Below, one piece after another: positions 48,876 through 56,198 of a DNA stretch of 64,000 nt (positions within the stretch are counted from its first letter, which is position 1; every line of letters begins with the position of its first letter). The position numbers and the translations under genes are program-made. The notes below the pieces were generated by a model. That model made no database searches and was not told where the DNA came from. It worked only from the letters and a program-made list of their open reading frames with translations. The DNA comes from Gemmatimonadota bacterium. GTDB lineage: Bacteria > Gemmatimonadota > Gemmatimonadetes > Longimicrobiales > Gaopeijiaceae. The DNA lies in NCBI GenBank assembly GCA_030428885.1, contig JAUIEJ010000005.1:248001-312000 (forward strand), in the 5' to 3' direction.

Positions 48876-49790
48876 TCAGCCCTCCACCCGCTCCAGAATC
48901 CGTCCCAGGACCCGCGGCGCGTCTCTCAGCCGGAGGTTGCTGACGTACACGCCGTCCACCCCCGACGCGAGCGCGGCTCGGACGCTCCGGGCGGTGACCT
49001 CCTCGGCCGGGAGTCCCCCACCGAACTCGGCGGTGAGGCCTGCGGCCGGAACGGGCAGGAAGTCGGCCAGGCGAGCGAGGGTGCGGGGGTTGGCGCTGCG
49101 GTAGTGGAAGACCCCGGCGAGGATCGGGGCGGTGAAGCCCTCGTCCCGCACCCGGTTCACCAACTCCACCAGCCGGCCGGCATCGTGGTGCGACACCACC
49201 TGGGTGAGGACGTAGTCGGCTTCGAGATTCGGGTCGAGAAGGAAGCCGGCCTGTTCCTCCACGTCGCGAAAGGGGTTGGCCCACCCCCCCAGTCCGAGGC
49301 TCGGCACGCGCTCCCGCAGCCGCCTACGCAGTTGCCAGGCATGGGGCACGCACCGCGGCGGACCCCCGCGGGGATCGCCGCCCACCACGGTGAGGGCGGC
49401 CAGGCCCATGGTGTGGGCACGCTCGGCGTAGAGGCGGCAGTAGTCGATGGAGTGCTTGCAGGTGAGAAAGGGCACGAGCCGCGAGCGGTCGATCCCGGGG
49501 TCGAGATTGGCGTCGAGGTGGCCCAGGGTCTCCTCCTCGCTCACCCCCACGGCGTCGTCGGTGAGGAAGACGAAGCGACCGTCGCCGGTGAAGCGGCGGA
49601 TCGCGTGGTTGAGGTCGATCCAGGCGTCGATGCCGTCGGTGGCGTCGAGGTCGGCAAGGGGCGGGCGCAACTCCACCGAGACGAAAGGGCCCGTCCGGCC
49701 CGGGCCACGGAGGGCGTGGACCAGGGCGTCGCGGCCCACGGGCCCCACGCCGGGCCCGTTCGCGGCCCCCCCGGCTCTGTGGCGAGTCAC
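48876..49790 (-). CDS. Methylenetetrahydrofolate reductase-like protein
   Basis: A 304-residue TIM-barrel flavoprotein relative of MetF, which reduces 5,10-methylene-THF to 5-methyl-THF for methionine synthesis. Visible elements are PFVSVELRPPLADLD at the first strand, RLVPFLTCKH at about 102-111, MGLAALTVVGGDPRGG (about 127-142) and DYVLTQVVSHHDAG (about 198). It is divergent from canonical MetF, lacking the standard FEFFPP start. GTG 49790 overlaps the fusion gene stop (GTGA). As the upstream fusion already contains an MTHFR module, this copy may have a different cofactor or an accessory role. Confidence 0.75.
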   Translation of the reverse strand: MTRHRAGGAANGPGVGPVGRDALVHALRGPGRTGPFVSVELRPPLADLDATDGIDAWIDLNHAIRRFTGDGRFVFLTDDAVGVSEEETLGHLDANLDPGIDRSRLVPFLTCKHSIDYCRLYAERAHTMGLAALTVVGGDPRGGPPRCVPHAWQLRRRLRERVPSLGLGGWANPFRDVEEQAGFLLDPNLEADYVLTQVVSHHDAGRLVELVNRVRDEGFTAPILAGVFHYRSANPRTLARLADFLPVPAAGLTAEFGGGLPAEEVTARSVRAALASGVDGVYVSNLRLRDAPRVLGRILERVEG

Positions 49791-51642
49791 GGCGTCCCGT
49801 CGTCCAGCACCGCCAGTGCCGCGGCCACATCGCCCTGGGGAGCGGCCACGTGCACGCCGGCTACCCGGGGCAACCCACTCACCGCCGCGCGCACTTCCCG
49901 GGCGATGGCGATCCCCTCGGCCCGGGCGGCGTCGGGTCCGTCACCCTGGGCTCGCCGCATGCGGTCGAGGGTGGGGGTGGGCACGGCCACGCCGGGCACC
50001 TCGTGGGCCAGGAACTCGGCGTTGCGCAGCGACAGGAACGGCCACAAGCCCACCAGCACCGGAAGGGGGTGGGCGGCGGTGGCGTCGAGGAAGCGTCGGA
50101 GCGATTCCACGTCGAAGACCGGCTGGGTGATGGCGAGATCGGCTCCGGCCTCGGCCTTCCATCGGAATCGGGAGCGTTCCCGCTCCTGGTCCACGGCACA
50201 GGGGTTGGCGGCCACGGCCACCACGAAGCGTGTGGGGGCAGAGAGCGCCGCCCCGCCGGGGTCCACGCCCCGGTTCAGCCCCGCCGCCACGTTGGTGAGG
50301 CCGATGGCGTCGATGTCGAAGACGGCCGTGGCGTCGGGATAGGGGCCCTGGACCGGTGGATCGCCCGAAACCAGGAGGAGGTTGTCCACGCCCTGGGCCG
50401 CCGCGCCCAGGAGGTCGGAGAGCATCCCCATCATGTTCCGGTCACGGCAGGTGTAGTGCATGATGGCCTCGACGCCGGCCTCCCGTTCCACCACGGCGGC
50501 GGCGGCCGTGGTGGCCATGCGACTGGGACCCCGGGGTGAATCCACCAGCGTCACGGCGGCGACGCCGGCGGCGGCGCAGGCCCGGGCGGCCTCCACCAGG
50601 GGGGCCGGATCCCAGCCGTGGGGGGGGAGCAGTTCCACGGTCTTCACCGGCTGGCTCCCGGCCAGGGCCGCCCCCAGCGACGATCGCTCGCCCAGGGGCA
50701 CCGGGGTGTGGGGCGCGAGCTCCGCCTTCACCTGGACCGTGGCGGAGGCGTGGCGAGGCTGGAGTCCCCGGACCGTGTGGGCGATGCGGGCCACGTGCTC
50801 GGGCGTGGTGCCGCAGCATCCGCCGACGAAGCGCACCCCCACGTCGGCGAACCGACGGGCGTAGCGAGCCATGTAGTCCGGGCTGGCCATGTACATCTTC
50901 CGATCCCGCACCGTGCGGGGAAGGCCGGCGTTGGGCTGGGCCAGAAGGGGCACACCCACCCGGTCCGCGGCCTCCTCCAGGACGTCCAGGAGCACGGCGG
51001 GTCCCACGCTGCAATTCAACCCCACGGCGTCGGCCCCGGCGGCCTCGAGGCGGGCGAGCTCCCGGGCGGCGTCGGCCCCGTAGGCCGTGCGCCCGTCTTC
51101 GCCCACGGTGATCTGGACGAGCACCGGTCGGGATCCGGCGGCCTCCCGGGCGGCGCCCAGGGCCACGGCCACCTCGTGGGGGTCGGCGAAGGTCTCCAGG
51201 AGCAGGCCGTCCACGCCCCCCTCGACGAGGGCGTCCATCTGACGCCGGAAGAGCGCCCGGGCCTCGTCCACCGAGGTGGGACCCCACGGCTCGATGCGGA
51301 TGCCCAGAGGCCCCACCGCCCCCACCACCCGGGCACGTCCCCCGGCGGCCTCCACGGCCAGGCGCGCGGCGGCCCGGTTGAGTTCCTCGGTGCGGTCGGC
51401 GAGGCCGAAAGCCGACAGCTTCACGGGGTTGGCGCCGAAGGTGTTGGTCTCCAGCACCTCGGCCCCGGCCTCCACGTATTCCCGGTGGATGGCGGCCACC
51501 CGCTCCGGCTCCTCCACCGCCAGGGCGTCGTAGCAGACGTTCACGAACACGCCGCGGCCGTAGAGCACCGTGCCCATGGCCCCGTCGAAGACGTGCACGC
51601 GGTCGTCGGCGAGGAAGTCGGCCAGGGTGGGGAGCGCGTCGC

Positions 51643-51646
<4 letters not shown>
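49787..51646 (-). CDS. Bifunctional homocysteine S-methyltransferase / methylenetetrahydrofolate reductase
   Basis: A 619-residue fusion like Bacillus YitJ. The N-terminal homocysteine methyltransferase domain (about 1-290) begins [16 protein letters not shown] and keeps the zinc cysteines in GLNCSVG and GGCCGTT. The C-terminal MTHFR domain (about 325-610) includes [49 protein letters not shown] and [14 protein letters not shown]. The start is GTG 51646, overlapping the metH stop by GTGA. It can supply methyl-THF and methylate homocysteine without MetH's B12 domain, so both routes are encoded in one operon. Confidence 0.9.
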
Positions 51647-55437
<3,791 letters not shown>

Positions 55438-55454
55438 GAGGTGGTATGGCAAGG

Positions 55455-55478
55455 CCTCGGCAGGGGCAACGGCCGAGG
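55455..55478 (-). promoter_or_regulatory. Hairpin between the riboswitch and metH start
   Basis: CCTCGGC and GCCGAGG form a seven-base stem around a ten-base loop, between the SAM-II core and the ATG at 55437. Its 3' arm contains GAGG, the only purine-rich stretch in front of the ATG, though about 17 bases away. It may be the expression platform. Confidence 0.4.
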
Positions 55479-55481
55479 CGT

Positions 55482-55559
55482 GGCTTTTTAGCGTGTTTGC
55501 CTCCCTCCGGTGCCCCGGAGGGGAGACGGGCCGCAAGATGCCGCAAATCGCCCCAGATC
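55482..55559 (-). promoter_or_regulatory. SAM-II riboswitch upstream of metH
   Basis: Minus-strand RNA matches the SAM-II fold element by element. P1 is GGGC/GCCC (55550-55553 with 55528-55531), closing an 18-base loop GATTTGCGGCATCTTGCG, which carries the conserved GATTT and TTGC. Downstream, AAACAC-GCTAAAAAGCC ends at 55482. TTGC meets GCTA with the characteristic U-U, and GGC pairs with GCC across the A-tract to form the pseudoknot. SAM-II has CC/GG at that place, so this is a covarying replacement. L3 carries an extra hairpin (CCTCCGG-GGCA-CCGGAGG). The SAM-bound form should reduce metH translation. It lies 44 bases before the ATG. Confidence 0.85.
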
Positions 55560-55616
55560 AGTGATGTTCTGCAAGGTAGCGAAGGGAGAGGGCGGGGTCC
55601 ACGTCGGTGGGCTGCG

Positions 55617-56198
55617 TCAACCGCGCCGCATCTGCTTGATCCGCAGACCGTTCCCCGAGTCCTCCATGAGCGTTGCCAGGCGACGGTGCCGCGTCTCCTC
55701 GCGCTTGGCCGCCATGACCCATCTCGCGGTGGCCCGTCGATACCCCGGGGGTTGTTCCTGGTAGAACGCCCAGGCGTCGGGACTCTGCTCGAAGCGGCGG
55801 CGCATCTCGGCGGGGAGTTCGTCGGTGCGGTCGGCGATGCGGTACCCGCTGTCGGGGTGCACGTCCTTGTGGGCGAAGGCGGCCAGCCCCTCCGGCGTCA
55901 TCCGCCCCTCCGCCGTCAGCCGCTCCACGATCTCGATGTTCCGCCCACTCCACACGCTGGTGCGCTTCCGGGGCGTGAAGCGGATCGTGTAGCTCTCGGC
56001 GTCCCGCGACTTCCGGATGCCGTCGATCCATCCGAAGCAGAGCGCCTCGTCGACGGTGTCTTCCCAGGTGACGGACGGTTTGCCCGTGGCCTTCTTGTAG
56101 TACCCCACCCAGAGGTGGTCCACCGACGTGTGGTGCCGTTCGAGCCACGCGCGGAAGTCGGCGGGCGTGGGGAAGAACGTGGGCGATTCGTCGGTCAT
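55617..56198 (-). CDS. YdeI/OmpD-associated family protein
   Basis: A 193-residue cytoplasmic protein of the YdeI/OmpD-associated type (bacteriocin-protection/YdeI-like). The first domain has FRAWLERHHTSVDHLWVGYYKKATGKPSVTWEDTVDEALCFGWIDGIRKSRDAESYTIRFTPRKRTSVWSGRNIEIVERL, a nearly complete match to the family pattern. The second half is the helical region with RFEQSPDAWAFYQEQPPGYRRATARWVMAAKREETRHRRLATLM. The biochemical role is unknown; some members affect survival under peptide stress. ATG 56198 matches the family start. It ends 58 bases upstream of the metH riboswitch and is probably a separate unit. Confidence 0.9.
   Translation of the reverse strand: MTDESPTFFPTPADFRAWLERHHTSVDHLWVGYYKKATGKPSVTWEDTVDEALCFGWIDGIRKSRDAESYTIRFTPRKRTSVWSGRNIEIVERLTAEGRMTPEGLAAFAHKDVHPDSGYRIADRTDELPAEMRRRFEQSPDAWAFYQEQPPGYRRATARWVMAAKREETRHRRLATLMEDSGNGLRIKQMRRG

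Follow-up and report, generated by a model that had tools for sequence, protein, structure and literature searches.

A SAM-II-type riboswitch variant with a hairpin in L3 is predicted before a metH operon in a Gemmatimonadota bacterium

The stretch of DNA we analyzed (the window, 64,000 nucleotides of a Gemmatimonadota genome) contains a SAM-II-type motif on the minus strand, between a gene for an OmdA-domain protein (stop at 55617) and metH (ATG at 55437). On the same strand lie metH (51643..55437; TIGR02082 1571.5 bits, PRK09490 1897.8 bits), a gene that fuses homocysteine S-methyltransferase (HCY) and MTHFR (49787..51646; PRK08645 639.2 bits), and a third, MTHFR-like gene (48876..49790). 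Judged by these scores, the identities of metH and the fusion gene are secure. The third operon gene matches PF02219 with 18.7 bits, which is below the cut-off, and no sequence relative of it (48876-49790, minus strand) was found in the PDB; it appears weakly MTHFR-like and very divergent. Both GTGA overlaps that had been predicted to join the three genes are seen in the sequence, between metH and the fusion gene at 51646-51643 and between the fusion gene and the MTHFR-like gene at 49790-49787. Other genomes of the class have a separate canonical SAM-II RNA for the fusion gene; here the gene is located behind metH, under one predicted switch.

A model built without the organism's own genus matches the aptamer as a whole, including a hairpin P3, at 55476..55556 of the minus strand with 65.9 bits. 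On this strand the parts follow in the order P1 GGGC/GCCC, GATTT, GGC, TTGC, hairpin, AAACAC and GCTAAAAAGCC; a GC-rich hairpin follows, ahead of the start codon. As read from the sequence, the 5' strand of P1, GGGC (55550..55553), pairs with its 3' strand, GCCC (55528..55531), and the inner pair of this helix is C-G, T-A or T-G in 31 leaders. GATTT (55545..55549) forms the third strand of the triplex, and TTGC (55533..55536) the 5' strand of P2; together with GCTAAA these core motifs are present in order in the window and invariant in alignment A1. The 5' strand of the pseudoknot helix P2a, GGC (55540..55542), covaries with GCC at 55484-55482. Alignment and covariation place the P2 3' strand, followed by this P2a 3' strand, in GCTAAAAAGCC (55482..55492). 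The A-rich end of L3 reads AAACAC (55493..55498), with the AAC before GCTAAA conserved. GATTT, TTGC, AAACA (55498-55494) and GCTAAAAAG (55492-55484) thus stand where the original prediction had put them. The extra hairpin it noted in L3 is also present, at 55499..55527, and is recognized by comparison with shuffled sequences and by covariation. However, it is not the seven-base hairpin first described: its stem (55527-55515 with 55510-55499) has about 12 bp with one bulged C.

A significant match to RF00521 had been named beforehand as the check on the prediction, and none was found in the window at E<=10. Rfam 15 gives no match in the window at gathering thresholds, and RF00521, RF01726 and RF01826 do not match the element even at E<=10 in the 1.2 kb searched. 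RF01826 finds nothing in the organism's own genome at E<=10 and one chance-level match among 58 relatives. The cut-offs of RF00521, RF01826 and RF01726 are 36, 41 and 44 bits, respectively, and RF00521 gives just 20-23 bits for members of the same family with a short L3. We attribute the missing RF00521 match to the absence of this variant from Rfam. A covariance model derived from 15 relatives that belong to other genera, with the organism's own genus held out (R1), matches the window at E=1.4e-14 in the 5.4-Mb genome and has no other match there at E<=10; within the window its E-value is 1.6e-16, with the next best match at 0.36. In a sample of 298 genomes from the phylum, R1 finds a match in most genomes of the same family, as a rule a single one in each. 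R1 matches canonical SAM-II RNAs in other families as well, with lower scores (e.g., 39.8 bits for the metH leader L008, G013:C1), and this links the variant to SAM-II.

The structure of alignment A1 was set by hand after a search for pairing columns. Paired cells make up 91.5% of those proposed, as against 28-44% when the partners are slid, a contrast that stems in part from the choice of columns, since the P3 columns were picked as pairing columns and the slid control favours them. Nine of 15 pairs change on both sides, as against 5.3 in shuffles (one of 500 was as high), and none of 500 shuffles reaches the covariation score of A1. The variants of P2a are GGC/GCC, AGC/GCT and GGT/ACC, with compensatory changes in two of the three pairs; this is the covariation in relatives that the original prediction had named as a second check. 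The same prediction took GGC/GCC for a covarying replacement of the CC/GG pair of SAM-II. The covariation holds, but the replacement is no oddity and reflects ordinary variation of the P2a helix (PMC6061858), which has 5 bp in 60% of SAM-II RNAs and 2 bp in the rare translational metX form (PMC6061858). The TTGC/GCTA pairs do not vary and thus carry no information on covariation, and P1 is nearly invariant in A1. In P3, seven of the eight aligned pairs have changed on both sides, in stems of mostly unrelated sequence. Independently of the alignment, the folding of the L3 segments surpasses that of shuffled sequences in 20 of 23 leaders (p<0.05), and P3 of the window sequence has a z of -4.7; the combined z of -15 is overstated, as the relatives are not independent. 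RNAalifold, run on the alignment, found P1 alone, because pseudoknots are beyond its scope and the alignment of P3 is poor. The held-out model, the covariation and the conserved position in relatives uphold the prediction of a SAM-II-type aptamer before the metH operon.

The element is found upstream of metH in most genomes of the family, and wherever metH coordinates are known it lies in the metH leader. Some lineages have no R1 match; in genus g5 the metH leader L055 (G045) lacks the SAM-II core and R1 has no match in six genomes, so the switch has apparently been lost there. Across the phylum, RF00521 matches 137 of 200 genomes at E<=0.001, and among the best 30 loci, 12 lie before metH, nine before the HCY/MTHFR fusion gene and two before metF with metH next. 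Family f3, of the same order, has SAM-II long-loop RNAs before metH, with the RF01726 cut-off passed by three of ten leaders scanned (and by five of the 58 relatives). The presence of SAM-II or long-loop RNAs before metH or the fusion gene in several families suggests that the phylum habitually places metH under SAM-II-type control, with the window element as the local form of this control. The proposal of a SAM-II-controlled metH thus stands as to the metH leader, but such control is widespread in the phylum and not peculiar to this genome. A loose DNA pattern scan across genomes returned 118 stretches, scattered in unrelated, mostly AT-rich genomes.

Several further observations concern related RNAs. 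In family f2 and in G196 (L190-L200, L211), SAM-II-like RNAs before metH have a long L3 that looks hairpin-like by eye, and f3 members have an A-rich L3 in place of a hairpin; P3 may have arisen more than once. The organism's own genome contains one canonical RF00521 copy, at C8:194873-194948 (L212), before an O-acetylhomoserine sulfhydrylase gene. This copy has GTGGTCTTTTGAC in place of the GTGGTGATTTG of other copies, that is, GATTT has become CTTTT, and the same change is found in the congener G069 (L214), again before an O-acetylhomoserine sulfhydrylase-like gene. In other families of the class, three canonical SAM-II RNAs (L001, L010 and L013) directly precede panB (TIGR00222), which encodes ketopantoate hydroxymethyltransferase and is a surprising target for a SAM switch.

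In the window a -10-like box, TACCTT, is located upstream of the aptamer (55573..55578, minus strand). A TANNNT box occurs before the aptamer, at a similar distance, in 24 of 30 leaders, compared with a mean of 3.2 and a maximum of 9 in shuffled sequences. The mRNA therefore probably starts shortly before the aptamer, an arrangement reported for SAM-II (PMC1273637). Downstream, many relatives' leaders have a stem directly after P2a that is followed by a U-run (e.g., GCCCC..GGGGC-CTTTTTT in L040), and terminators are frequent in SAM-II leaders (PMC1273637; PMC2258182). The corresponding hairpin of the window, GCCTCGGC..GCCGAGGC (55454..55479, minus strand), is terminator-like, with a z of -1.0 and a weak U-tract, CTTGCC; in many relatives the U-run is longer.

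We consider it likely that the element is an OFF riboswitch that has the SAM-II/SAM-V fold, senses SAM and controls the operon of metH, the HCY/MTHFR fusion gene and the MTHFR-like gene. Plentiful SAM would complete the P2 triplex and lock P1 and P2a, leaving the downstream hairpin free to form and halt the transcript before metH; at low SAM, the 5' strand of P1 or the 3' strand of P2a would pair differently and so let transcription continue. In families f2 and f3 the 3' strand of P2a (AGTGCCGGG or GAGTCGGG) is complementary to the 5' arm of the terminator (CCCCGCACT), which suggests a route by which ligand binding could free the terminator. In the window's own family no specific antiterminator emerged: arms swapped between species pair equally well, so a specific co-adaptation between the 5' strand of P1 and the arm of the terminator was rejected, and minimum-energy folds are mixed.

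An alternative explanation, to which we give a smaller though appreciable probability, is that the same SAM aptamer acts on translation, its SAM-dependent folding and the hairpin limiting ribosome access as in SAM-V and metX SAM-II, both of which act on translation (PMC6061858). The weak U-tract in this genome fits such an output, as does the resemblance of the 4-bp P1 and P3 to SAM-V, and about 16 nt separate the end of the downstream hairpin from the metH start. However, P2a here (GCC) carries no Shine-Dalgarno sequence, and in many relatives clear terminators with a U-run lie between P2a and the gene. That SAH is the ligand, alone or alongside SAM, is improbable. metH belongs to the SAM cycle, and SAH riboswitches regulate metH in Comamonadaceae according to a passage of a Proteobacteria survey (PMC4239095), but the uridines of GATTT and TTGC and the GCTAAA core are retained here, SAM-II does not respond to 1 mM SAH (PMC1273637), and canonical SAM-II controls metH in the same phylum. 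SAM-V tells SAM from SAH by the uridine pair (U9, U20) of the corresponding triple, and the binding of SAM by SAM-II is nearly the same (PMC6061858). A chance resemblance or decayed relic, which the lack of an Rfam match might suggest, is extremely improbable given the held-out E=1.4e-14, the covariation, the conserved position and a core that is intact in the congener G069; the covariation and the held-out match rule out chance.

The SAM-sensing switch we favour would bring the methionine synthase operon under SAM-II-type control in much of the phylum. Among the openly accessible papers searched, we found none that connects SAM-II with Gemmatimonad- names, and, judging by titles, none of the seven on Gemmatimonadetes, riboswitch and SAM deals with such an element. 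In passages of the Proteobacteria survey on SAM_alpha (PMC4239095), the targets named are metY, metA, metX and hom, and metH is not among them. Rfam-based annotation overlooks the variant in a whole bacterial family, whose methionine regulon therefore looks unregulated. The combination of a SAM-V helix layout with a SAM-II-type terminator also offers a natural test of how P1, P3 and P2a set ligand affinity and output.

Compared with SAM-II (SAM_alpha, RF00521; Corbino 2005, PMC1273637), the element has the same GATTT, TTGC and GCTAAA core, P1 and pseudoknot P2/P2a; many relatives have a terminator after P2a, and canonical copies precede metH elsewhere in the phylum. However, it carries P3 in L3, where SAM-II has none (PMC6061858), its P1 has 4 bp instead of 6, its A-rich strand is shortened and its score is below the cut-off. 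The original assignment to SAM-II is thus right as to the type of fold, whereas the cut-off, P3 and the short P1, the latter two being SAM-V features, place the element outside RF00521. In the crystal structure of SAM-V, a four-pair P1 is followed by the third strand and P2, then by a P3 stem-loop of 3 bp and by an A-rich strand that occupies the minor groove of P1 (PMC6061858), and the window element shares with SAM-V (RF01826; PMC6061858) the 4-bp P1, third strand, P2, A-rich strand and a P3 placed after the P1 3' strand. P3 is an addition to L3 placed as in SAM-V; we guess that it stacks on the 4-bp P1 and lends support to this helix. Unlike the 3-bp P3 of SAM-V, P3 here is long and variable, relatives have terminators, RF01826 does not match, and P2a, which is longer in SAM-II than in SAM-V (PMC6061858), has 3 bp (GCC) with no Shine-Dalgarno sequence, the start codon lying 45 nt further on. 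Membership in SAM-V (RF01826) was rejected by score. SAM-II long loops (RF01726; Weinberg 2010, PMC2864571) are likewise a SAM-II variant found before metH, in sister family f3, but in these RNAs additional bases separate P1 from GATTT and L3 is A-rich and lacks P3, and their model leaves the window unmatched. Several members of the window's family have a 3-bp P3 (CGG-GAAA-CCG in L052) or none (L059, L069), and canonical forms with a 6-bp P1 precede metH in other families. With a SAM-V-like P1 and P3, SAM-II-like terminator leaders in relatives and a graded P3, the element is best read as a new structural variant within the SAM-II/SAM-V fold, outside RF00521, RF01726 and RF01826. Tentatively, and with just short of even confidence, we suggest that the metH leaders of the phylum form a graded series, from canonical SAM-II with a 6-bp P1 and no P3, through a 3-bp P3, to a long P3 with a 4-bp P1; SAM-II and SAM-V would then mark the two extremes of a single continuum along which P3 and the expression platform vary independently of each other.
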